A DNA stretch of 51,317 bases from Patescibacteria group bacterium (GTDB lineage Bacteria; Patescibacteriota; Microgenomatia; JAMCZE01): contig JAMCZE010000005.1 in the NCBI GenBank assembly GCA_023485845.1, positions 1-51,317 of the forward strand, in the 5' to 3' direction. The notes under the pieces were generated by a model that saw nothing but the letters and a program-made list of their open reading frames with translations, had not been told where the DNA came from and ran no database searches. A program made the position numbers and the translations under genes. Below are positions 5,815 through 50,007 of the stretch, in pieces. Positions within the stretch are counted from its first letter, which is position 1. Each line of letters starts with the position of its first letter.

Positions 5815-5832
5815 AAGTTGCATGCCTCTTTG

Positions 5833-5903
5833 TCGGGGAGTCGAGAATCGAACTCGAACTGCCAGACCCCCAGCCTGGCGCGCTACCACTACGCCACTCC
5901 CCG
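5833..5903 (-). tRNA. tRNA-Pro (anticodon GGG)
   Basis: A 71-nt cloverleaf: acceptor CGGGGAG / CTCCCCG with discriminator A, D arm GCGTAGTGGTAGCGC, anticodon stem CCAGG / TCTGG around loop CTGGGGG (anticodon GGG), and T arm TCGAG-TTCGATT-CTCGA. CCA is not encoded. It lies divergent from recA. Confidence 0.93.
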
Positions 5904-5940: not shown

Positions 5941-5969
5941 TTGACAAAACATCCCGTAACATATTTAAT
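5941..5969 (+). promoter_or_regulatory. recA promoter, leaderless configuration
   Basis: TTGACA (5941-5946), a 17-bp spacer and TTTAAT (5964-5969). The recA ATG at 5976 starts 6 nt after the -10, exactly where transcription should begin. No LexA-type operator was recognised. Confidence 0.75.
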
Positions 5970-5975
5970 GGGGTT

Positions 5976-7022
5976 ATGGCACAGGACTCCGGAAAGATGA
6001 CTTCCATCCGTTTGGCGATGGAGCAAATTGAAAAACAATACGGTAAAGGCTCCATTATGAAATTGGGTGAAGCGGCTCCAAAAATGGAAACCAGCGTTAT
6101 TTCCACCGGGATTCTTCCTCTCGACCTTGCCTTGGGAGTCGGCGGTTTGCCTAGAGGAAGAATCGTGGAAATTTATGGCCCGGAGGCTTCAGGCAAAACC
6201 ACGGTGGTTCTCTCCTGCATTGCCCAGGCGCAAAAAGCCGGCGGAGTGGCCGCTTTTATTGACGCCGAACATGCCCTTGACCCCCTTTGGGCGGAGAAGC
6301 TAGGTGTTAACTTAAATGACCTGTTAATTTCCCAACCGGACACTGGGGAGCAGGCATTGGAAATTGCCGAGACATTAATTCGCTCCGGGGGTATTGACGT
6401 GGTGGTTATCGACTCGGTGGCGGCTCTGGTTCCCAAAGCAGAAATTGAGGGGGAAATGGGTGATTCGATGATGGGGCTTCAGGCCCGGCTGATGTCTCAA
6501 GCTCTAAGAAAGTTGACTGGGGTGATTAATAAATCAAAAACGATTGCTATCTTCACTAATCAGCTGCGCCAGAAAATCGGAATCATGTTTGGCAATCCCG
6601 AAACGACCACTGGCGGTTTGGCCTTGAAGTTTTACACCTCCGTGCGCATGGATATTCGCAAGATTGAGCAGCTTAAAGAAGGCGATGTGGTTATCGGCGG
6701 CCGGCATCGGGTGAAAGTGGTTAAAAACAAAGTGGCCCCGCCGTTTCGGATGGCGGAGTTTAATGTTTATGGTGCCACCGGTGTGTCCTATGAAGACGGG
6801 CTTTTGGATGTTGGTTTGGAACTGGGGATCATTAGCAAATCAGGAGCATTCTTGAAATATAAGGAAACGATGCTGGGTCAAGGGCGGGAAGCGGCCCGGC
6901 TTTTCTTGGCAGAGAACAAAAAAGTGTCTAAGCAGATAGAAGAAGATATCAGCAAGAAAGTTAAATCCGGCGCCGTCGCTGAAAAAGTCGTCATGGGGGA
7001 AGAGGGAAAAGAGGAAGAATAA
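5976..7022 (+). CDS. recA: Recombinase A
   Basis: 348 aa, standard length. The Walker A GPEASGKT is at residues 68-75, and the Walker [11 protein letters not shown] and the loop L2 stretch ([20 protein letters not shown]) are intact. RecA forms filaments on single-stranded DNA for homologous recombination and the SOS response. The ATG at 5976 gives the family N-terminus ([20 protein letters not shown]) and fits a leaderless mRNA. The C-terminus is acidic (GEEGKEEE). The recX gene lies 0.7 kb downstream on the same strand. Confidence 0.97.
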
Positions 7023-7026
7023 CTTC

Positions 7027-7056
7027 TTGACAAACCTTGGTAAAGTTTGTTATCAT
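7027..7056 (+). promoter_or_regulatory. Promoter of RHH gene with embedded operator palindrome
   Basis: TTGACA (7027-7032), 18-bp spacer, TATCAT (7051-7056), ATG 6 nt later. Between the boxes lies ACAAACCTT-GGT-AAAGTTTGT (7030-7050): 9-bp arms with one mismatch, well placed for a repressor. Confidence 0.7.
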
Positions 7057-7062
7057 TTAGCT

Positions 7063-7242
7063 ATGAGCACTCTTAATATCTCTGTCACTGACCAGCAGGC
7101 GGTTTTGGTTGACCGGTGGGTAACCACATATGGCTTTGCCAACCGCAGTGAACTCTTTCGGGCAATTTTGAGATATGTTGACCAACACCCCGAGATTTTA
7201 AGAAAACTTGCCGGGTTCAAGGCAAAATCTCTAAATAAATAG
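7063..7242 (+). CDS. Ribbon-helix-helix DNA-binding protein
   Basis: 59 aa. The N-terminal strand MSTLNISVTDQQAVLVDRWV followed by two helices (FANRSELFRAILRYVDQHPE) is the RHH fold of CopG/ParD-type regulators, which bind operators as dimers with the paired strands in the major groove. ATG 7063 is chosen because the -10 box ends 6 nt before it; the upstream in-frame start lies inside the promoter. No toxin gene follows: the next gene is convergent, so a solitary autoregulator is more likely than a toxin-antitoxin pair. Confidence 0.75.
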   Translation: MSTLNISVTDQQAVLVDRWVTTYGFANRSELFRAILRYVDQHPEILRKLAGFKAKSLNK

Positions 7243-7262: not shown

Positions 7263-7724
7263 TCATTCAATTTTGTCAATGACCCCGGAAAATTCTTCGC
7301 TGGTTTGGTAGGAGAACTTGTCGCCAATTTTCTTGCCGGTGACGGCCAGACCGAGCGGTGATTTCTGGGTGATTAGCTGGACTCCCGGTAACTTGACATT
7401 GCTGCTTACCAAGAAAAATTCGGCGGTTTTTCCTGCCGGCTGGTTATAGCGGACCGACACGAAGCATGGTGGTGTGATTATTACTGAAGGTTGATCCGAA
7501 CTGGCAGTAATCTCTCTTTGCAATGATTCCGCATCCCAGAGCAGGGTTTTGGCAAAGTCTACTACGGCTTCTGCTGCTGGCCGAAAGGCGTTGATCGACC
7601 AGCTCTCTATCGATTGTTCAGCATAGCCCCGGGCAGTTGATTTGGCCGACTCAACATGTGATTTCTTGGTATTTAAATGTTGCTCAAGTAGTTTTAGGAC
7701 TTGTTTCTTTCTTTCGATTTTCAT
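7263..7724 (-). CDS. GreA/GreB-family C-terminal domain protein
   Basis: 153 aa. The C-terminal half contains the GreA/GreB FKBP-like landmark (LITQKSPLGLAVTGKKIGDK, around residues 118-137). In Gre factors this domain docks at the RNA-polymerase secondary channel, while an N-terminal coiled coil carries acidic tip residues for transcript cleavage. Here the N-terminal 75 residues look helical, but I cannot identify the canonical DE-containing tip. It may be a Gre-like RNA-polymerase regulator rather than a true cleavage factor. It is divergent from recX. Confidence 0.65.
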   Translation of the reverse strand: MKIERKKQVLKLLEQHLNTKKSHVESAKSTARGYAEQSIESWSINAFRPAAEAVVDFAKTLLWDAESLQREITASSDQPSVIITPPCFVSVRYNQPAGKTAEFFLVSSNVKLPGVQLITQKSPLGLAVTGKKIGDKFSYQTSEEFSGVIDKIE

Positions 7725-7738
7725 AGCATAGGTTGAAT

Positions 7739-7744
7739 TATACT
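7739..7744 (+). promoter_or_regulatory. -10 box of recX, near-leaderless
   Basis: TATACT ends 7 nt before the recX ATG (7752). On the other strand TATAAT (7735-7740) serves the GreA-like gene, so the two divergent promoters overlap. Confidence 0.55.
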
Positions 7745-7751
7745 GACATTT

Positions 7752-8333
7752 ATGCAGATAACAAAACTGGAGTATCAGAAGAAAGATCCTAACCGGGTGA
7801 ATGTTTATGTGGATGAAAAGTTTGCCGTGGGGTTGGAGACAAATGACATCATTAAACTTGGTTTAGCAAGGGGCCAGGAAATTTCTCAAAAGCAACTAAA
7901 CGGCATCATTGGCGCTAGTGAGTTTGGGAAATTATTTAATACGGCCTTAAATTTTTTATCTTACCGACCGCGCAGTGAATGGGAAGTGCAGCATAAATTA
8001 AAATTCAAAAGTCAAAATGCAAAATTGGTAGACGCGGTTGTCGAAAAACTTAAGGGTATGGGGCAAATTAATGACGAGGAATTTGCCCAATGGTATACTG
8101 ATCAGCGCCGAACGTTTCGGCCCAAAGGCAAGCGGGCAATTGAGATGGAACTGCGCCGTAAAGGGGTGCAAAGTGACACAATAAAACAATTAAGCAGTAA
8201 CCCAATAAATGAAGTTGAATTGGCAAAAAGAGCCTTGGAGAAATTTCGTGGGGAGAAAACCCGGCCGCGATTGGAAAGATTTCTGGCCAGCCGGGGATTT
8301 GATTGGCAAACGATTGAAGATGTGGTAAAATAA
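7752..8333 (+). CDS. recX: RecX-family regulatory protein
   Basis: 193 aa of tandem three-helix RecX repeats, with typical stretches FNTALNFLSYRPRSEWEVQH, DEEFAQWYTDQRR and RPKGKRAIEMELRRKGV. RecX binds RecA filaments and limits their extension. It is separated from recA only by two small genes. A short AT-rich repeat unit (AAAATTCAAAAGTCAAAATG, 7998-8017) is translated inside the second repeat as KFKSQNAK. Confidence 0.85.
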   Translation: MQITKLEYQKKDPNRVNVYVDEKFAVGLETNDIIKLGLARGQEISQKQLNGIIGASEFGKLFNTALNFLSYRPRSEWEVQHKLKFKSQNAKLVDAVVEKLKGMGQINDEEFAQWYTDQRRTFRPKGKRAIEMELRRKGVQSDTIKQLSSNPINEVELAKRALEKFRGEKTRPRLERFLASRGFDWQTIEDVVK

Positions 8334-13200: not shown

Positions 13201-14885
13201 GAAAGTTGGGCGTAAAGGCGCCGAATGCCGGCGGCCACCGCTTCTTCTTTAATAATCTTAAACCTTCCTAGAACTTTTGTGTGTTCCACATGCGGCCCGC
13301 CGCAGATTTCCCGACTGACATTGCCAAAACTGTAGACGGTGACTTTTTCCGGGTACCTCTCTTTAAAAAAAGCCATGGCCCTGGAGGAAATTGCTTCCTG
13401 ATAGGTCATCGTCTCCTTCTTTTGAGGAAGATCCTTGTCAATCCAATCGTTAACTAGCTTCTCGACTTTAGCGATTTCATCGGCGGTTAATTTGGCGGGG
13501 TGAGAGAAATCAAACCGCAGCCGCTCGGCGGTGAGATTTGACCCCTCCTGGCGAACATGGTCGCCCAAAACTTGCCGCAAAGCTGCCTGCAACAGGTGGG
13601 TGGCGGTGTGATATTTGGTCACCTGCTCCGAATGATCCGCCAGTCCCCCGGCAAACATCCCCGCCGCCGCCGTCCTCGAAAGCTCCTGATGGCTCCGAAG
13701 TTTTTCCTCGAACGATTTTTTACCAAAGGCTAATTTTTTTTCTTTGTATATTTCTTCGGTAATTTCAATCGGAAACCCGTATGTCTGATAGAGATCAAAA
13801 GGATCAATTTTCCCAACTAGTCCCAAGCCTTTATCCAGTGTTTTTTGGAATCGCTGAATTTCTTCGGCAATCGCTGCCAGAATTTCCTGTTGATGGGAAG
13901 AGAGCTCCGGATAAACCGGTACCATGATTTTAATAAAAGTGATGGCAATTTCGGATAACCTAACCGGATCAAAACCAAGCTGCTTGGCTTGAACGACCGA
14001 CCGGCGAATTAGTCGGCGAAGAGTGTAGCCCTGCTGCTTATTTGATGGAGTAACACCGTCAGCAGCGGCAAACACGGCCGCGCGAACATGGTCAGCAATA
14101 ATTCGGAATGGTTTTAGGTTTTCCTCATACTTTTTCCCGGAAAGCTCCCCAATTTTTTTGATGGCCGGTTGCCACAGTTCGGTTAAATAATCATCATCAA
14201 GTCCGTTTACCACGGCCAACGTTCGCTCAAGGCCCATGCCCGTGTCCACATTTTGTTGGGCTAACTTCTCAAATTTCCCATCGGCTGTCTTGTTATATTC
14301 CATAAACACGTTATTCCAGATTTCCGACAACTCGCCATTGGCCAAAACGTAGTGCATTTCCGTGTCCGGGCCGCATGGTCCGGTCTCTCCCGCCGGCCCC
14401 CACCAATTGTCCTTCTTGCCGAGAAATTTTATCCTGTCTTTGGGAATTCCTAACGACTCCCAAACCTTGGCGGAAAAATCATCTCTTGAAGCATCGGCGT
14501 CACCGGCAAAGCAAGCGACGTAGAGCCTTTTCGGGTCAAGTCTTAAGACCTTAATCAGAAATTCATAGGACCACTTAATAGCATCTTCTTTAAAGTAATC
14601 ACCCAGCGACCAGTTACCAAGCATTTCAAAAAAAGTGTGGTGAATGGCATCGCCAACTTCATTAATATCATCGGTGCGCAGGCATTTCTGGACGTCAACT
14701 AGTCTTTTGCCTTCTGGGTGCGGCTGGCCCAGCAGATAGGGAACGAGGGGATGCATTCCGGCGGTGGTGAAAAGCACTGAGGGGTCGTTTTGGGGGACCA
14801 GTGAAGATCCGGGGATCTCGACATGATTTCGCGGCGCTTGTTTCCAAAACTCCAAAAACTTTCTCCTTAGCTCCAAATGGGTCAT
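13197..14885 (-). CDS. alaS: Alanyl-tRNA synthetase, C-terminally short form
   Basis: 562 aa against about 870 normally. The class II catalytic core (FTTAGMHPLVPYLLG near 39-53, GPAGETGPCGPDTEMHY at 163-179) and tRNA-recognition region are complete. The editing domain has zinc-type ligands H426, H430, C528 and H532. The protein stops right after it (AGIRRLYAQLS); the DHHA1/C-Ala domain that aids dimerisation and tRNA elbow binding is absent. The 3' neighbour follows with a normal 4-nt overlap, so the short form is probably real. TATAAT (14893-14898) ends 7 nt before the ATG. Confidence 0.92.
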   Translation of the reverse strand: MTHLELRRKFLEFWKQAPRNHVEIPGSSLVPQNDPSVLFTTAGMHPLVPYLLGQPHPEGKRLVDVQKCLRTDDINEVGDAIHHTFFEMLGNWSLGDYFKEDAIKWSYEFLIKVLRLDPKRLYVACFAGDADASRDDFSAKVWESLGIPKDRIKFLGKKDNWWGPAGETGPCGPDTEMHYVLANGELSEIWNNVFMEYNKTADGKFEKLAQQNVDTGMGLERTLAVVNGLDDDYLTELWQPAIKKIGELSGKKYEENLKPFRIIADHVRAAVFAAADGVTPSNKQQGYTLRRLIRRSVVQAKQLGFDPVRLSEIAITFIKIMVPVYPELSSHQQEILAAIAEEIQRFQKTLDKGLGLVGKIDPFDLYQTYGFPIEITEEIYKEKKLAFGKKSFEEKLRSHQELSRTAAAGMFAGGLADHSEQVTKYHTATHLLQAALRQVLGDHVRQEGSNLTAERLRFDFSHPAKLTADEIAKVEKLVNDWIDKDLPQKKETMTYQEAISSRAMAFFKERYPEKVTVYSFGNVSREICGGPHVEHTKVLGRFKIIKEEAVAAGIRRLYAQLS

Positions 14886-14892
14886 GGGATCT

Positions 14893-14898
14893 ATTATA
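14893..14898 (-). promoter_or_regulatory. -10 box of alaS, near-leaderless
   Basis: A perfect TATAAT ends 7 nt before the alaS ATG. No convincing -35 is seen and there is no room for a Shine-Dalgarno leader. Confidence 0.6.
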
Positions 14899-16140: not shown

Positions 16141-18278
16141 TGTTGTTCAGGGGTTTGGCTTTGATTTTGATTGGCAAAATATTCATCGGCATTGCGCACT
16201 AAAACATCGCGCGGTTTGCTGCCTTCACCCGGGCCAACAATACCCAGCTCTTCTAGGGTGTCCAGAATCCGGGCGGCTCGGGCGTAGCCGATGGACAGTT
16301 TGCGCTGCAGCAAGGAAGCGGAGGCGCGGTCATATTGGCATACGATTCGGATCGCTTCATCAACCAGGGGATCACCGCCGCCGGCCGACGTTTGTTTGCC
16401 GCCGGGTCCGCTTTTAATAATTGTTTGCATTGTGGTGACCTCTTGAGTGTATTGCACCGGGCCGCCGCGGGCTTTAAGCCAATCCACTAATTTGTGCACT
16501 TCACCGTCGGAGACGAAGGCCCCTTGAATCCGGCTCGGTTTTGATTGATCGGGGGGAATATAAAGCATGTCCCCCTTGCCCAACAATTTTTCCGCCCCCG
16601 GGGTGTCAATAATCACCCGAGAGTCAATCATGGAGGTGACGTTAAAAGCAATCCGGCAGGGAATATTGGCTTTAATCAGCCCAGTAATGACGTCGACGCT
16701 GGGTCGTTGGGTGGAAAGGACCAAGTGAATGCCGGTGGCCCGGGCCATTTGTGCCAGCCGACATATAGCATCCTCAACTTCCACCGGGGCAAACATCATA
16801 ACGTCGGCCATTTCGTCAACAACAATGACTAAATATGGCAAGGCTTGAAAACCAGCCATTTCGTTATAGCCTTCAATGTTGCGCACACCGGCGGAAGCAA
16901 ATAATTTGTAGCGCCGCTCCATTTCGGCGATGGCCCATTTCAGCGAGGATAGGACCTTGTCCACTTCCACGATCACCGGGGTCAACAGGTGGGGGATGCC
17001 GTTATACAAAGACAATTCCACCCGTTTCGGGTCAACCAGAATTAGCTTTAGTTCTGACGGAGAATTACGGTAAAGCAATGAGGTTAAGAAAGCATTGATG
17101 CAAACCGATTTTCCGGAGCCGGTGGAGCCGGCAATCAGCACGTGGGGCATCTTGGCAATGTCGACCACTTGGGGGTTGCCGGAAACATCCAGTCCCAAGG
17201 AAACGGCCAGCTTGCTCTTGGCTTGCTGGATCCGATCCGATTCCAAAATGCTGCGCACGGTGACAAACTCCGGGGTGCGATTAGGAATTTCGATCCCCAC
17301 TAGGGCCCGGCCGGGAATCGGGGCCTCAATCCGGATTTGCCCCGGGGCGGCTAGAGCCAGGGCCAAATCATTTTGCAAAGTGGTAATTTTTGATAGCTTC
17401 GTACCCAAAGCAATTTCCAGAGCATATTGGGTGACAGCCGGTCCCTTATTCACCTCAGCCACTCGGGCAGTGATGCCGAAAGATTCCAGCGTTTTTTCAA
17501 TCACGGCGGCATTTTGTTTGATGTCTCCCCGGTCGGCCGTGCCACCGGAAGCGTCGGATAGAAGTGATAGCGGAGGATATTCCCAAACTTTGCTGTCCTG
17601 CTCCGGCGGGGTGTTTTGGATAATTTTATCATCGGTCAGCGTTCCTTCAGGGATAGGCAGGCGCGGCTGCTGGGGAGAGGGAACCTTAGGCTCCAGATTC
17701 TGGCTTGGCATTGCCGGAGCTGTCGCCGGCTTCACCTGGCTGTCCTTAACAAAAACCGGACTCGGTTTTTTAGTGAAAGAAAACAGTTTGTTAAAGAAAT
17801 CTTTAATTGCCTTGAAACTATCGGTGAAGATTTCAATTACTTCACCAATGGACAGGTTAAAAAGCACGGTGGCTCCCAAGATGGCCACTAATAAAAGAAC
17901 GAAAAAGACTACAAAACCAAGGGGAATCAGAGTGTAGATGGTGGCAAACAGCGTTTGGCCAAGATTGCCGGACTGGGAGAGACCTAAGAGAGCACAGAGA
18001 ATTAGAAAGTAGCCAATGACACTGTTAGGCTTAGCCGGCCCGATTTTGACCCGGGATAAAAGCAGAGCCAGTTGAACCAGGGTGATGGCAAAGAAGACTT
18101 TGCCCCAGCCAAAATAGAGATCAAATAACGCACTTAGTTTGGTCAAGATGGCACCTTGAGGGTAGAAAGTGGAAACCATGATCAATCCCGCGGTGGCCAG
18201 AAGACCGAGGGAGAAAATGGAATAAACCGTCTGCTTACGCAGTTTCAACCGAAATAAGCTTCTTTTGCGATAACGCAT
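16137..18278 (-). CDS. ftsK: DNA translocase FtsK/SpoIIIE
   Basis: 713 aa. Four N-terminal membrane helices (about 20-150) are followed by a Pro-rich linker, the alpha/beta motor and a C-terminal winged-helix gamma domain (about 640-700, DEAIRIVCQYDRASASLLQR). Walker A is HVLIAGSTGSGKSVCIN near residue 385 and Walker B is LVIVVDEMAD. FtsK pumps chromosome ends through the septum and activates dimer resolution. TATACT ends 9 nt before the ATG with GGAAG between them. Confidence 0.95.
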   Translation of the reverse strand: MRYRKRSLFRLKLRKQTVYSIFSLGLLATAGLIMVSTFYPQGAILTKLSALFDLYFGWGKVFFAITLVQLALLLSRVKIGPAKPNSVIGYFLILCALLGLSQSGNLGQTLFATIYTLIPLGFVVFFVLLLVAILGATVLFNLSIGEVIEIFTDSFKAIKDFFNKLFSFTKKPSPVFVKDSQVKPATAPAMPSQNLEPKVPSPQQPRLPIPEGTLTDDKIIQNTPPEQDSKVWEYPPLSLLSDASGGTADRGDIKQNAAVIEKTLESFGITARVAEVNKGPAVTQYALEIALGTKLSKITTLQNDLALALAAPGQIRIEAPIPGRALVGIEIPNRTPEFVTVRSILESDRIQQAKSKLAVSLGLDVSGNPQVVDIAKMPHVLIAGSTGSGKSVCINAFLTSLLYRNSPSELKLILVDPKRVELSLYNGIPHLLTPVIVEVDKVLSSLKWAIAEMERRYKLFASAGVRNIEGYNEMAGFQALPYLVIVVDEMADVMMFAPVEVEDAICRLAQMARATGIHLVLSTQRPSVDVITGLIKANIPCRIAFNVTSMIDSRVIIDTPGAEKLLGKGDMLYIPPDQSKPSRIQGAFVSDGEVHKLVDWLKARGGPVQYTQEVTTMQTIIKSGPGGKQTSAGGGDPLVDEAIRIVCQYDRASASLLQRKLSIGYARAARILDTLEELGIVGPGEGSKPRDVLVRNADEYFANQNQSQTPEQQ

Positions 18279-18335
18279 ACGGCTTCCAGTATAGCGCGAA
18301 GTCTAAATCTCCACAATCTAGGAGGAGATGAGAAA

Positions 18336-22614: not shown

Positions 22615-23646
22615 TTACACAAGAAACTGTTGAAGATTAGTGTCGTCGATAATAATCTGTTGGCCTTTGCCCGAGACGACGGACAAGGCGGCCTTGCGGA
22701 CCATATTATTAATCGTTCGTTCCAGGGTGCGAATGCCCGAGTCAAAGCCTAGGGGTCGGACAATCTTGGGCCAAACGTCGGCGCTGATCTGCAGTGTTCC
22801 TTCCGGCAGCCCCGAATCCTTCAGGACTTTTGGCAAAACGAAATCCCGCCCGATGGTGATTTTCTCCTCATCGGTGTAGGAGGGCATTTGAATTGGTTCC
22901 AGCCGGTCCAAAACGGCGGTGCTAATGTTAGTGGTGTTGTTGCTGGTGGCAATAAACAGCACGTCGGAAAGATCAAAAGGATAATCAATATAGTGGTCAG
23001 CAAAGCGGCTGTTTTGTTCCGGGTCTAATAGCTCTACTAAAACTCCCATAATGGTGGCCCGGGCTTCCTCGGCCACCCGGTCGATTTCATCCAGCAAAAT
23101 TACTGGGTTTTTGGTCCCGGCCCGGCGCAGGGCCTTAATAATCGCCCCCGGTTCCGCGTCGGCAAAAGAACGGGACTGGCCCCGCAAAAATTGGGCATCG
23201 CCGATGCCACCAAAGGGAATCCGTTCAAATTTGCGGCCCATTGCCTGGGCCACCGAATAGGCCAGGGTGGTTTTGCCGGTGCCCACCAGCCCAACCAGGA
23301 GCAAAATTGGAGCCCGATTGCCGGCTTTGCTTAATTTTAAAACCGCCAGATATTCCAGAATTTTATCTTTGGCCTCTTTAAGACCATAATGATTTTTATT
23401 AAGAACCGTCTCGGCATTGGGGATATCTAGGATATCATCAGATTTTTTGTCCCAGGGAAGAGCGGTCACCCAATCCAGATAGCGGGTGGTGGCATCAAAC
23501 TCGGCCGCATAATTGCCCCCCAACTTAGCCATCCGGTCCAGCCGCACCACCATGGCTTTTACCTTTTGTGATAACTCCTCCGGCAGTTTTGCCTGCACCA
23601 CTTTGTCTTCCAGTTGTCTGATCTCATCAATTGCTGGAGTGTCCAT
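22615..23646 (-). CDS. Lon-like AAA+ ATPase without protease domain
   Basis: 343 aa. It corresponds to the middle of Lon: a short coiled-coil linker, then AAA+ with Walker A GLVGTGKT (119-126), Walker B LLDEID (184-189) and the sensor and lid regions (LDRLEPIQMPSYTDEEK). LLDPEQNS and YPFDLSDVLFIATSNN parallel the full-length Lon at 46551-48965. The N-domain and the Ser-Lys protease domain are both missing, and the frame ends cleanly before the BRO-N gene. A role as unfoldase or remodeller is inferred. Confidence 0.85.
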   Translation of the reverse strand: MDTPAIDEIRQLEDKVVQAKLPEELSQKVKAMVVRLDRMAKLGGNYAAEFDATTRYLDWVTALPWDKKSDDILDIPNAETVLNKNHYGLKEAKDKILEYLAVLKLSKAGNRAPILLLVGLVGTGKTTLAYSVAQAMGRKFERIPFGGIGDAQFLRGQSRSFADAEPGAIIKALRRAGTKNPVILLDEIDRVAEEARATIMGVLVELLDPEQNSRFADHYIDYPFDLSDVLFIATSNNTTNISTAVLDRLEPIQMPSYTDEEKITIGRDFVLPKVLKDSGLPEGTLQISADVWPKIVRPLGFDSGIRTLERTINNMVRKAALSVVSGKGQQIIIDDTNLQQFLV

Positions 23647-23653
23647 GGAGTTC

Positions 23654-23659
23654 AGTATA
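23654..23659 (-). promoter_or_regulatory. -10 box of the Lon-like operon, near-leaderless
   Basis: TATACT with extended TGC on the minus strand, ending 7 nt before the ATG of the Lon-like ATPase gene. Confidence 0.55.
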
Positions 23660-26191: not shown

Positions 26192-26398
26192 TTATGCGGA
26201 ATTAGCTGTGGCAGTTATTCTTGTACTTTGTGCTTGCAATCTTTTTTTGATTACTGTTAGAGCATCTTCACAATCTTTCTCATCACCCGTATCATCACAT
26301 GGTCGTGGATTTGATTTTGATCTTAATAAACAATTCCCCTCGGGGGTTTTAAACCGACACCCTTCATTATTAACAAGAACAGAATTTTTTAAAAACAT
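26192..26398 (-). CDS. Small four-cysteine protein, 68 aa
   Basis: I do not recognise it. Four cysteines (C14, C23, C34, C43, in CRFKTPEGNC and CDDTGDEKDC) could bind a metal or form disulfides, though the spacing matches no zinc-ribbon I know. On the minus strand TAGACA, a 17-bp spacer and TAAAAT end 5 nt before the ATG, so it appears to have its own leaderless promoter and may head the rpsO-pnp transcript. Confidence 0.5.
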   Translation of the reverse strand: MFLKNSVLVNNEGCRFKTPEGNCLLRSKSNPRPCDDTGDEKDCEDALTVIKKRLQAQSTRITATANSA

Positions 26399-26429
26399 AA
26401 GTTATTTTACTTGATTTAGTGGTCTTTGT

Positions 26430-30090: not shown

Positions 30091-30392
30091 TGGTTGGAAG
30101 AATTGACTGTTGCAGCAATAATCATAAGCGATAAAGGGATTACTGGTAAAATTAGTGAGGCAGCAACAATCAACCCTGCAGTCTCTGGTCTCATTCCGAG
30201 ATTTTTTAGTGTCTCAAAAGTCCAACTTGGATTGATGGGTAAATTTAGGGCAAAATCGCGGATGCTTTCGGTCGCGGCCGGAAAAGCCTTAGCCACAAGT
30301 GGATAGGCACTGAAATGCATTAGATAAGTAAATGTCGCTATGGCGCCTGGTTTAACTGCCTTTGTAATTATGGGAGCAAGTTCTTTCGACAT
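30087..30392 (-). CDS. Small membrane protein, 101 aa
   Basis: Not recognised. It has a hydrophobic segment near residues 18-36 and a strong C-terminal one (AGLIVAASLILPVIPLSLMI, about 72-95), so two membrane passes are likely. It begins at ATG 30392, 6 nt after a near-consensus promoter, and ends at the nusA promoter. Confidence 0.5.
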   Translation of the reverse strand: MSKELAPIITKAVKPGAIATFTYLMHFSAYPLVAKAFPAATESIRDFALNLPINPSWTFETLKNLGMRPETAGLIVAASLILPVIPLSLMIIAATVNSSNH

Positions 30393-30398
30393 GGAGTA

Positions 30399-30427
30399 AA
30401 TATACTATAAGTTTACTATCTTGTCAA
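30399..30427 (-). promoter_or_regulatory. Promoter of the 101-aa gene, leaderless configuration
   Basis: Minus strand TTGACA (30422-30427), a 17-bp spacer and TATATT (30399-30404), then TACTCC and ATG. The -10 to ATG distance is 6 nt. Confidence 0.75.
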
Positions 30428-30890
30428 TCGAAAAGCTTGGTTTCGGAAATGACTGATTTACCCAGGCGGGATTCGAGTTTGTTGCGGGCGGCTTTGGCGA
30501 CACCACCGCCTTGTTGATGGCCAACTCCGGATCCTGCGATTCTTCCACTCGTTCATAGCCCACCCGGGCCAACCAAAGTTTGAACGGTTCGGCATTAGGA
30601 GAGGGAATGGATTGGATGAGGCGAAATAACGTCTCGGTATCGGCGGCGTCTGTCAAATAATACTTGCCGTCAGGCGCTAAAAGCTTCAGTTGGTGACATT
30701 TTGTCACCGACTGACTTCCCTCGCTCCGTAATCTCTCCGCCAGTTTATTCCAATATTTTCTTGGATTTTCGCTGCCGGTTAAAGCACCAACGACATCAAC
30801 AACGGAGAAATACCATTTCTCTTCTTTCTCCACCCACAATCGGCGGATTTGTCGGCCCTTAAAAAGTGATATTTTTGCGGTGTTTGTCAT
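30405..30890 (-). pseudogene. BRO-N paralogue with internal deletion and frameshift
   Basis: The first 120 or so residues parallel the intact BRO-N protein at 21788-22612 (FRLIQSIPSPNAEPFKLWLA, RVGYERVEESQDPELA). After INKA the open frame continues with unrelated residues. In another frame the same DNA encodes GGGVAKAARNKLESRLGKSV, the paralogue's C-terminus (ARKKLEHRLGRSI). So roughly 100 codons were deleted out of frame. The promoter (TATAAT at 30897-30902, 6 nt before the ATG) is still intact. Confidence 0.8.
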
Positions 30891-30896
30891 AGAGCC

Positions 30897-30902
30897 ATTA
30901 TA
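30897..30902 (-). promoter_or_regulatory. -10 box of the BRO-N pseudogene, leaderless configuration
   Basis: Perfect TATAAT on the minus strand, 6 nt before ATG 30890. The -35 is weak. It lies just beyond the dinB stop codon. Confidence 0.5.
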
Positions 30903-36321: not shown

Positions 36322-36350
36322 TTGACAAATTTTGCTAACCTCCTTAAAAT
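36322..36350 (+). promoter_or_regulatory. groES promoter
   Basis: TTGACA (36322-36327), a 17-bp spacer and TAAAAT (36345-36350). The groES ATG follows after 8 nt, so the mRNA would have almost no leader. Confidence 0.75.
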
Positions 36351-36358
36351 CGCAATCG

Positions 36359-38861
<2,503 letters not shown>

Positions 38862-38867
38862 AGAAAA

Positions 38868-38873
38868 AGTATA
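38868..38873 (-). promoter_or_regulatory. -10 box of the four-helix gene, leaderless GTG start
   Basis: Extended -10 TGT-TATACT on the minus strand; the GTG start follows after TTTTCT (6 nt). The -35 is weak. Confidence 0.55.
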
Positions 38874-40339: not shown

Positions 40340-41344
40340 CTACGGTTTCCCTAGTTCTGGATAAATTTTTGTTAAGGTATTAAGGAGGGTTTTCTTGGCT
40401 CGAGCGAATGGCTGATTAATTGTGGCTCCGGCCGCTCCGGGATGACCTCCACCACCAAGAGCCACCGCAATTTTGGAAACATCTTTCGAGTAGAATCGAA
40501 GACTGACATTGACTTGATCTTTCTCCTTCTCAATCAACATTGCCCCAATTTCCGTTCCTTCGATTGACCGCAGTGTTCCGGCGATCTCTCCACCGGAAGC
40601 ATTTTCTTTAGGGATTTTATGTGACAAAAGATTGGCAGCAGAGACAGCAGAGAAGGCCACTTTTTTAGAAAAGAGGATCTTAACTTTTGATAAAGCGAGC
40701 CCCAAGAATTCTAAATCTTTTGTCTGGGTGGTGTTTTCATAAACAAAGAGTGCCTGAACAAAATTCGGGTTGATTTTTGTCAAGGATGCTGCCGTGGTGA
40801 AGGTTTGCGATGTTGTCCCTGGATATTTAAATAATGTATCTGTATAAATTCCAACAAAGAGACATAGAGCGACGTCTGGATTAAGTTCTATGGACCAAAG
40901 TTGAAAAAGATCATAGAGTAATTGGCTGCAAGCAGGGTAGCTGCTGTCAACCAGATTAATTTTTCCAAAATTCGGGTTGCTGCCGTGATGGTCAATCACA
41001 ATTGTTTTCAGGCTTTTCGGAAGATTGAAATCCAATCGCGAAACCTGTTCAATGTTGCCGCAGTCAAGAATTAAAAAGAGATCAAAATCGGCGAGGTTGA
41101 TTTTGGTGATGTTTTTGTTAACAATGTTTTCAAAGCCCGGAAAGGCTTTCGTTGAGGCTGTCAGTGGCGAGTCACCACGGATCAAAGTCACATCTTTGCC
41201 GAGCTGGCGCAGAATATGGTAAACAGCGAGATTGGAGCCGAGACTGTCGCCGTCGTGGTTATAGTGCAAAGTCATCAGAATTTTCTGGGCTTTTTTGATT
41301 TCTTCCCAAATCACCGGCGCTAGCTGTTTGACCTTATCTGACAT
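40340..41344 (-). CDS. nrnA: NrnA-like oligoribonuclease / pAp phosphatase
   Basis: 334 aa. DHH domain motif I is HYNHDGDSLGS (27-37), motif III DHHGSN (118-123), and the DHHA1 domain carries GGGGHPGAAGATI near residue 297. NrnA degrades nanoRNAs left by other RNases and removes 3'-phosphate from pAp. TAAAAT (41351-41356) ends 6 nt before its ATG. Confidence 0.88.
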   Translation of the reverse strand: MSDKVKQLAPVIWEEIKKAQKILMTLHYNHDGDSLGSNLAVYHILRQLGKDVTLIRGDSPLTASTKAFPGFENIVNKNITKINLADFDLFLILDCGNIEQVSRLDFNLPKSLKTIVIDHHGSNPNFGKINLVDSSYPACSQLLYDLFQLWSIELNPDVALCLFVGIYTDTLFKYPGTTSQTFTTAASLTKINPNFVQALFVYENTTQTKDLEFLGLALSKVKILFSKKVAFSAVSAANLLSHKIPKENASGGEIAGTLRSIEGTEIGAMLIEKEKDQVNVSLRFYSKDVSKIAVALGGGGHPGAAGATINQPFARAKKTLLNTLTKIYPELGKP

Positions 41345-41350
41345 GGCAAT

Positions 41351-41373
41351 ATTTTAACAGATTGCGATATACT
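41351..41373. promoter_or_regulatory. Divergent leaderless promoters of nrnA and the ABC exporter
   Basis: Minus strand TGT-TAAAAT (41351-41356 is the -10) serves nrnA, 6 nt before its ATG. Plus strand TATACT (41368-41373) serves the ABC gene, 6 nt before its GTG at 41380. Both start codons fall on the expected transcription start. Confidence 0.65.
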
Positions 41374-41379
41374 TAGTCC

Positions 41380-42372
41380 GTGCCGACGATTATTGTTTCC
41401 CACCTATCAAAATATTACCGGGTCCACCAAAAAGAACCGGGGCTGGTCGGGTCGGTGAAAAGCCTTTTTGCCCGCAAATATTATGACGTTAAAGCGGTGA
41501 ACGATGTGTCTTTTGAAATTGAGGAAGGGGAATTGGTCGGTTTCATCGGTCCAAACGGTGCCGGGAAGACCACCACCTTAAAAACCCTTTCGGGACTTTT
41601 GTATCCCACCCGTGGCGAAGTGTCCGTTTTGGGCCATATCCCCTGGAAACGGGAGGCAGTGTTTCAAAAACAGTTTGCCCTGGTCATGGGCCAAAAGAAT
41701 CAACTCTGGTGGGATCTGCCGGCCATCGAGAGTTTTATCCTGAACAAAGAGATCTATGAAGTCCCGGATGAACAATACAGAATGACCCTAAATGAACTTT
41801 CGGAACTTTTGGAAGTGCAGGATCTCCTAAAAGTTCAAGTGCGCAAGTTATCATTGGGGGAGCGAATGAAAATGGAATTAATTGCTGCCCTGATTCACTC
41901 GCCAAGAGTGTTGTTCTTGGATGAGCCGACCATTGGCCTGGACGTGGTGGCCCAGAAAAAGATGCGAGACTTTATTAAAGTTTATAACCTGAAATATAAA
42001 TCAACGATTATCCTCACCAGCCATTACATGGACGATGTCAAAGAACTTTGTAAACGGGTTATCATTATTGATAAAGGAAAAGTTCTTTTTGATGGCCAGC
42101 TGGCCCAGATTGTTCGCCAGTTTGCCGACCACAAAATTCTTTCCGTCGTTTTGGAAAAAGAATTATCCCGCAAGCAGGTAGAAAGTCTGGCAAAACTCGG
42201 CGGCGTTCGGGAACTGGAATTTCCTAAGCTGGTTTTAGAAGTTCCCCGGGAACATTCCAACAAAGTGGCGGCCAAACTGCTGTCCGCTTATCCGGTGGCG
42301 GATCTAAATATTGAGGAGCCGGCGATTGAGGACATCATCCGCGAAGTTTTCACTGGGCGCGACATCTCATGA
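41380..42372 (+). CDS. ABC-2 exporter ATPase
   Basis: 330 aa. Walker A GPNGAGKTT (57-65), signature LSLGERMKMEL and Walker B VLFLDEPTIGLD are intact; a C-terminal extension follows. The set of one ATPase and two different six-helix permeases resembles the COG4586/COG4587/COG3694 exporters, whose substrates are unknown. GTG 41380 matches the family start and fits a leaderless mRNA. It overlaps the first permease by 4 nt. Confidence 0.88.
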   Translation: MPTIIVSHLSKYYRVHQKEPGLVGSVKSLFARKYYDVKAVNDVSFEIEEGELVGFIGPNGAGKTTTLKTLSGLLYPTRGEVSVLGHIPWKREAVFQKQFALVMGQKNQLWWDLPAIESFILNKEIYEVPDEQYRMTLNELSELLEVQDLLKVQVRKLSLGERMKMELIAALIHSPRVLFLDEPTIGLDVVAQKKMRDFIKVYNLKYKSTIILTSHYMDDVKELCKRVIIIDKGKVLFDGQLAQIVRQFADHKILSVVLEKELSRKQVESLAKLGGVRELEFPKLVLEVPREHSNKVAAKLLSAYPVADLNIEEPAIEDIIREVFTGRDIS

Positions 42373-45262: not shown

Positions 45263-45271
45263 GTTTACAAT
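45248..45271 (+). promoter_or_regulatory. Promoter of the response regulator, leaderless GTG start
   Basis: TACAAT (45266-45271) ends 6 nt before GTG 45278. A TTGTCA -35 lies 18 bp upstream, just outside this interval at its left edge (about 45242-45247). Confidence 0.6.
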
Positions 45272-45277
45272 GAAGTT

Positions 45278-45640
45278 GTGAAGATTCTTTTGATTGACGA
45301 CGATAATGCCCTTCGGGAGCTTTATGTGGCGGAACTGACTAGTCGCCACTATGAGGTGGTGGAGGCGGTTGATGGTGAAGAAGGAATTGTCAAGGCGCAA
45401 AAGGAGAAACCGGACGTGATCCTTCTGGACATTATGATGCCAAAACTCGATGGCATTGCCACCTTGACTCGTCTTAAACAAGAGCTAACCACTAAAGATA
45501 TTCCCGTGGTGATGCTCACCAACTTTGGCCAGGAAAACATGGTCCAACAAGCATTTTCTTCGGGGGCAACTGATTTCCTGATAAAATATAAAGTCACTCC
45601 GGCGGAAATGGCCGATAAGGTGGCCCAAGTGGTAAAATGA
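45278..45640 (+). CDS. CheY-like response regulator
   Basis: 120 aa, one receiver domain only. Acidic pair IDDD (7-9), phospho-acceptor Asp in ILLDIMMPKLDG (near 52), switch Thr in VVMLTNFG and Lys in FLIKYKVTP are all present, so it should be phosphorylatable. There is no output domain. It overlaps the kinase gene by 4 nt. Confidence 0.88.
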   Translation: MKILLIDDDNALRELYVAELTSRHYEVVEAVDGEEGIVKAQKEKPDVILLDIMMPKLDGIATLTRLKQELTTKDIPVVMLTNFGQENMVQQAFSSGATDFLIKYKVTPAEMADKVAQVVK

Positions 45641-49421: not shown

Positions 49422-49973
49422 TCATTTTAATCTTTTTGTCCAAATGACAAGGGTGTCAAGCAGTTCCTTAATTTTTTCCCGGGTGTGGGGGTCGGTCACT
49501 TGGCCATCTTTAATTTTGTCCATGGCGTCAGGGACGATCACTTCCGGCTTATTTAAGGGGTGCATATTCAGAAAAACCATCGCTTGGCGCAGGGCATATT
49601 GGGCTTTAACGCCACCCATAAAACTGCCGGAAGCGCTCATGATTGCCGCTGGTTTGTCGTCGAAACTGTTGTCCCCATAGGGCCGCGACGCCCAGTCAAT
49701 GGCGTTTTTCAAAAAGCCGGGCAGGGAAAAATTATATTCTGGGGTGGAAATTAAAATGGCGTCGGCGGCCTTGATTTTTTTCTTAAAATCCACCACCACG
49801 GCCGGCGGGGTTTTCTCCTGATCTTGGTTAAAGACGGGAATGGCTCCGAGGTTTTCAAAAATTTCCAATTCGGCTTGCGCCGGGGCCAATTCTTTGGCCG
49901 CATAAAGGAGGGCCTTGCTAAAACTGCCGGCCCGCAAACTGCCCCCGAATCCAAAAATTTTAACCTTTTCCAC
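49422..49973 (-). CDS. NADPH-dependent FMN reductase
   Basis: 183 aa flavodoxin-like fold. FMN-binding loops GGSLRAGSFSKALL (9-22) and TPEYNFSLPGFLKNAIDW (near 77-94) match the family that reduces FMN, quinones or azo compounds. GTG 49973 is the start: TTGACA (50002-50007), a 16-bp spacer and TATATT (49980-49985) end 6 nt before it. Confidence 0.88.
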   Translation of the reverse strand: MEKVKIFGFGGSLRAGSFSKALLYAAKELAPAQAELEIFENLGAIPVFNQDQEKTPPAVVVDFKKKIKAADAILISTPEYNFSLPGFLKNAIDWASRPYGDNSFDDKPAAIMSASGSFMGGVKAQYALRQAMVFLNMHPLNKPEVIVPDAMDKIKDGQVTDPHTREKIKELLDTLVIWTKRLK

Positions 49974-49979
49974 AACGCC

Positions 49980-50007
49980 AATATAGACTTATTTTTTAAC
50001 TTGTCAA
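49980..50007 (-). promoter_or_regulatory. Promoter of the FMN reductase, leaderless GTG start
   Basis: Minus strand TTGACA (50002-50007), 16-bp spacer, TATATT (49980-49985), then GGCGTT and GTG. Confidence 0.65.

Follow-up and report, generated by a model that had tools for sequence, protein, structure and literature searches.

Sigma-70-type -10 elements next to start codons suggest leaderless or nearly leaderless messages as a main mode of initiation in a Patescibacteria genome

Sequence analysis of a Patescibacteria genome indicates that many of its genes are very probably transcribed from sigma-70-type promoters, which are placed such that transcription would start at the start codon or 0-3 nt before it; the resulting mRNAs would be leaderless or nearly leaderless. 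Genes whose start codon lies next to a -10 box are the largest recognizable class of genes in this genome. The window, i.e. the whole stretch of 51,317 nt that was analyzed, is contig 5 of an 883-kb genome in 14 contigs. The original prediction had placed a -10 hexamer 5-8 nt before the start codon of a set of genes in this window; the hexamer is present in all 14 genes named, and each time it matches TATAAT in at least five of six positions. The named products were checked against Pfam where possible.

On the plus strand of the window the recA gene has a -35 sequence TTGACA (5941-5946), which is separated by a 17-bp spacer from the -10 sequence TTTAAT (5964-5969); the latter is followed by GGGGTT, which makes 6 nt to the ATG at 5976. 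A tRNA-Pro gene (GGG) is located just upstream of recA on the opposite strand (5832-5903, minus strand). The same strand as recA carries TATCAT (7051-7056) 6 nt before the ATG of the RHH gene at 7063, TATACT (7739-7744) 7 nt before the ATG of recX at 7752, and TAAAAT (36345-36350) 8 nt before the ATG of groES at 36359. On the minus strand, boxes at 7 nt precede alaS (PF01411; TATAAT, 14893-14898, ATG at 14885) and a Lon-like AAA gene (TATACT, 23654-23659, ATG at 23646), while a gene for a 68-aa protein has TAAAAT (26404-26409) 5 nt before its ATG at 26398. In three further minus-strand genes the box ends 6 nt before an ATG, namely in those for a 101-aa protein (TATATT, 30399-30404, ATG at 30392), a BRO-N protein (TATAAT, 30897-30902, ATG at 30890) and an nrnA-like DHH protein (TAAAAT, 41351-41356, ATG at 41344). 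The statement that several of the genes use GTG also held, and all four of these have the box at 6 nt: the gene of a four-helix protein similar to the 23S-IVP family (TATACT, 38868-38873, minus strand, GTG at 38861), an ABC gene (TATACT, 41368-41373, plus strand, GTG at 41380), a response regulator (TACAAT, 45266-45271, plus strand, GTG at 45278) and an FMN reductase (TATATT, 49980-49985, minus strand, GTG at 49973). The ftsK gene, which was absent from the earlier list, has TATACT (18288-18293, minus strand) 9 nt before its ATG at 18278. The HU gene had been described as led by a Shine-Dalgarno (SD) site instead, and it does carry GGGAGGTGA.

The statistics for the own genome are based on 370 kb of stretches from the 883 kb. 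Gene calling relied on a dicodon model, in which upstream signals are not used for the choice of the start; this yielded 435 genes and 86% coding sequence. A strict -10 box was defined by a fixed rule (TATAAT with at least 5/6 matches, or TAnnnT with at least 4/6), and all box counts rest on this rule and not on an EM mixture. The caller recovered 30 of 43 annotated E. coli starts, so that individual genes may be miscalled and the box fractions of the own genome are probably underestimates. As a control, 250 kb of E. coli were passed through the same pipeline.

A strict -10 box at 5-9 nt from the start codon occurs in 84 of the 198 genes that are first in a transcription unit (42%), compared to 9% in background windows of the same width that lie farther upstream (p=3e-35). 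The value is 21% for operon-internal genes and 3.4% for internal in-frame ATG/GTG decoys. The concentration in unit-first genes is also evident when the analysis is limited to own genes with a start column common to at least two relatives; the box is then found in 10 of 16 unit-first and in 3 of 21 internal genes. If leaderless starts were widespread, a genome-wide histogram of the distance between -10 box and start was expected to have a sharp peak at 6-7 nt. Such a peak is present, with its mode at exactly 6 nt: this distance is found in 46 genes of the own genome compared to 6.0 expected per position (7.6-fold, p=4e-26). A secondary peak of 22 genes occurs at 9 nt, and further genes have the box at 11-12 nt. 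The arrangement corresponds to a TANNNT-type box whose distance from the start is sharply defined at ~10-12 bp, i.e. with a gap of 6-7 nt. The E. coli control had the box in 5% of genes versus a background of 10%, and not a single gene at distance 6. The Deinococcus megaplasmid MP1, taken as a positive control, has 1 gene at distance 6, but this replicon is too small and GC-rich for the strict rule to be meaningful.

A trivial explanation for these data would be that A+T-rich upstream DNA, combined with imprecise start calls, generates TATAAT-like hexamers near ATG by chance. The upstream DNA of unit-first genes is indeed A+T-rich. Furthermore, an EM mixture fit with three classes (-10, SD and background) assigned 40-60% also to shuffled upstream DNA, there with other motifs; its class fractions were dropped, and only the likelihood, the weight matrix and the alignment were kept from this fit. 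The log-likelihood, however, is 215 for the real upstream DNA and 40-52 for the shuffles. The excess of boxes is restricted to 6-9 nt and falls to the background level farther out; it does not occur in the decoys or in E. coli. The box peak is present even in relatives with a GC content of 63% and 54%, and in the own genome it is accompanied by TGn, -35 and -1 signals. We therefore consider chance and composition to be already refuted by the position-specificity of the signal, and assign this explanation practically no probability.

The accompanying signals were obtained from upstream sequences aligned on the hexamer. The extended TGn positions are occupied by T (.54) and G (.54), and TTG has its maximum at offset -23, which is equivalent to a 17-bp spacer; neither of these was a selection criterion. 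The TG extension is found in 36% of the near matches as opposed to 11% of the far matches. A pyrimidine, the usual initiator context, is present at position -1 in 78% of the distance-6 genes and in 55% of genes without a box. Hence -35 spacing, extended -10 and initiator context of a sigma-70 promoter element are all found, albeit with a weak -35 signal. Features outside the selection (TGn, TTG at 17 bp and the pyrimidine at -1) mark the hexamers as likely promoters, which would fire at the start codon. An alternative view is that the A/T motif has no promoter function and serves translation as an unstructured or S1-binding stretch. Start regions that are rich in A+T and have little structure are common to non-SD genes in general (PMC5397173), and most relatives encode a protein with an S1 domain. 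A translation element would nevertheless explain neither the identity of the hexamer, the extended TGn and the -35 sequence at 17 bp, nor the enrichment in unit-first over internal genes and the bidirectional symmetry in divergent gaps; we regard it as very improbable.

With promoters as the preferred interpretation, the following scenario can be proposed. RNA polymerase would recognize TAnAAT, often together with an extended TGn and with a weak TTG separated from the box by a 17-bp spacer. Transcription would begin 7 nt downstream of the box, with the purine of the ATG or GTG codon. Initiation of translation at the 5'-terminal AUG or GUG would then take place without an SD helix, most likely by a 70S ribosome together with initiator tRNA. 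Operon-internal genes would mostly use other means, namely stop/start overlap and, in a minority, SD sites. The statistics of the sequence demonstrate the identity and the geometry of these predicted promoters, while we infer from them the exact transcription start, the 70S initiation and the translation of the leaderless message. Since the mode is exactly 6 nt, canonical -10 spacing would put +1 on the A or G of the start codon; for boxes at 9 nt and 11-12 nt the same reasoning predicts leaders of a few nucleotides rather than none. The promoters could also be real while transcription generally starts 2-6 nt upstream of the start codon; the very short 5' UTRs would then behave in a leaderless-like manner or represent a minimal non-SD mode. 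Such short leaders agree with the secondary counts at 8-12 nt and with the positions of the box in recA of relatives (9-11 nt), ftsK (9 nt) and the greA-like gene (12 nt). They do not predict the mode at exactly 6 nt, and the pyrimidine at -1 is strongest at just this distance. As a general explanation short leaders are unlikely, although they are the most serious competitor to starts on the codon itself.

The choice of start codons was also informative. In mycobacteria, about a quarter of the transcripts are leaderless; a 5'-terminal ATG or GTG is both required and sufficient for the translation of such messages, and TTG fails (Shell et al. 2015, PMC4633059). Judged by codon usage only, the genomes examined here follow the same rule. 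TTG starts are rarer in the presence of a box, both in the own genome (3/119 versus 20/249 without box, p=0.04) and in the pooled other Patescibacteria (8/505 versus 86/1249, p=2e-6); GTG starts are not depleted. This bears on the idea that messages begin at these codons and translation at an internal codon farther downstream. Some of the genes do have alternative downstream starts, but the depletion of TTG points to selection of the 5' codon as a start, and in several of the proteins a Pfam domain begins only a few residues after the start (for example at residue 5 for LexA and Epimerase and at residue 8 for UvrD). Internal initiation is thus hardly probable as compared to initiation at the 5' codon.

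Next to this, the own genome has little SD signal. A search for SD-led initiation revealed no excess of anti-SD matches in this genome (10-14% versus 10% in decoys), and anti-SD duplex energies agree with a signal at the decoy level; the same analysis gave 43-70% in E. coli. Among box-bearing unit-first genes the value is 7%, with a decoy level of 10%. The contig with the own 16S rRNA gene stops before the anti-SD, and the 3' end of the 16S is absent from the assembly. A canonical anti-SD motif was found in 34 of 40 relatives; bS21 is kept in 36 of 40 and IF3 in 39 of 40. Most relatives also have an rpsA-like protein matching approximately the first 340 positions of the family, none of them above the curated cut-off. 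The initiation machinery of the relatives looks ordinary.

The net excess of boxes amounts to at least ~37% of the unit-first genes and ~27% of all genes, while about half of the own unit-first genes have no recognized signal. The original prediction had called leaderless initiation a main mode in this organism. This wording appears fair in view of the net excess and because no other recognizable class is larger; to speak of the main mode would go beyond the evidence, because of the half of unit-first genes without a recognized signal and because the analysis draws on sequence alone.

The pattern is, as judged from the genomes sampled, not peculiar to one of them. From each of the other genomes ~100 kb were sampled; G023 and G038 are largely N-masked and carry little weight. 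An exact 6-nt peak (p<0.05) occurs in 18 of 20 other Patescibacteria genomes from the same and from other classes. The strongest one is in G063, where 27 of 101 genes have the box at exactly 6 nt; in G060 and G075, which belong to other classes, the distance-6 peak is below significance. The use of SD sites varies: it is near the decoy level in the own genome and much of its class, and clear inside the operons of G047 and G055. The named RecA relatives are Levybacteria, Gottesmanbacteria, Curtissbacteria and other Microgenomates, which identifies the organism as a Microgenomates bacterium of the Candidate Phyla Radiation. Among these close relatives the recA gene changes its mode: many Levybacteria have a -10 box at 7-11 nt from the ATG, and many Gottesmanbacteria have an SD site and a longer leader. 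Ortholog pairs with a shared start column are few; in these, only 28% of the relatives of own box-bearing unit-first genes have the box as well, which suggests that single sites turn over quickly.

A consequence of leaderless starts is that back-to-back genes can sit very close to each other. Divergent pairs with start codons at most 45 nt apart account for 17 of 47 in the own genome and for 1 of 33 in E. coli. When all sampled genomes are considered, 16 of the 47 pairs with a gap of at most 40 nt (34%) have a -10 match of at least 5/6 on both strands, compared to 1% at random positions. The 17-nt gap AGAGGTATAATAGCACT of G063 contains TATAAT and TATTAT on opposite strands as a single symmetric element that includes TATAATA. 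Each box is 6 nt from its own start codon, so the two transcription starts would be 18 bp apart; bidirectional promoters most often have this spacing (PMC10268837). Another example of a symmetric element is a gap of 20 nt on C2 of the own genome. In such pairs one compact element may serve as a promoter in both directions and give rise to two leaderless messages. By sequence, a symmetric promoter of this kind is found in a few pairs; most short divergent gaps are 24-40 nt long and contain two separate boxes. The smallest gaps of 0-8 nt probably reflect wrong start calls.

Own examples are the pairs of a recJ-like and a polyA-polymerase-like gene (14 nt between the start codons), a release factor and a HicB-like gene (20 nt), and a P-type ATPase and a dihydroorotate dehydrogenase (29 nt). 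The divergent pair lexA/uvrB (L013:11811-14429) has 30 nt between the start codons, with no strong box for uvrB; the gap could have room for a LexA site common to both promoters. The window contains two pairs of the same type. The start codons of the nrnA-like gene and the ABC gene are 35 nt apart; those of the greA-like gene and recX are separated by 27 nt, and the greA-like -10 box (TATAAT, 7737-7742, minus strand, 12 nt to the ATG at 7724) overlaps the recX box on the opposite strand. Pfam domains begin near several of the divergent-pair starts. Together, these gaps suggest that some head-to-head pairs share a promoter of only 14-36 nt.

It is established that Actinobacteria and Deinococcus-Thermus have leaderless genes with an adjacent -10 box (PMC3160421, PMC12340547). 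Zheng et al. 2011 (PMC3160421) described a TANNNT box at a sharp position ~12 bp from the start in more than 20-30% of genes, as here; in contrast, the leaderless groups that they list from 953 bacterial genomes name no lineage of the Candidate Phyla Radiation, and compared to their TA-led groups the own genome has, in addition, an SD signal near background. In Deinococcus, leaderless mRNA is likewise driven by a -10 box that is only a few bp away from the ORF, and the -35 is optional and enhancing (Zhong et al. 2025, PMC12340547); that work concerns another phylum, does not mention Patescibacteria in its text and used reporter tests, unlike our sequence comparison. Leadered genes of mycobacteria are SD-dependent (PMC4633059), whereas the own genome shows little SD signal. 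The opposite-strand starts of Warman et al. 2021, as related in PMC10268837, are also 18 bp apart with a common -10 region. The divergent RNA is often non-coding there; here both inferred starts coincide with the start codons of real genes, 14-36 nt apart.

Our literature search, which omits most subscription papers, found no report on leaderless genes in the Candidate Phyla Radiation, Patescibacteria, Saccharibacteria or Parcubacteria; for this reason novelty is provisional. GeneMarkS-2 reportedly includes a model for leaderless genes, and it may already handle some of these genomes in this way. A large part of bacterial diversity belongs to the Candidate Phyla Radiation, which is almost entirely uncultured, so that experiments on how its ribosomes find start codons are scarce. 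A wider generalization is tentative, and we would stop just short of calling it probable: leaderless initiation may be the default, and possibly the ancestral, mode for unit-first genes across much of the Candidate Phyla Radiation, with SD marginal in some lineages in spite of a kept anti-SD and with many divergent pairs running from a single bidirectional leaderless promoter of 14-36 bp. If a widespread leaderless mode with little SD is real, it would help to explain the poor start prediction in these genomes and change the way in which genes from the Candidate Phyla Radiation have to be expressed in laboratory work; it would also be relevant to the long-standing debate on an ancestral origin of leaderless initiation. 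For annotation, an ATG or GTG with a -10 box at a distance of 6 nt can be taken as the likely true start.

The own 16S rRNA gene (L012:1-1200, G000:C11, minus strand) has an apparent intron-like insertion near position 1400, with an open frame that, judged by eye, resembles a homing endonuclease. The four-helix protein of the window (38313-38861) has its match in PF05635, the family of 23S rRNA intervening-sequence proteins, and its gene is located outside an rRNA gene.
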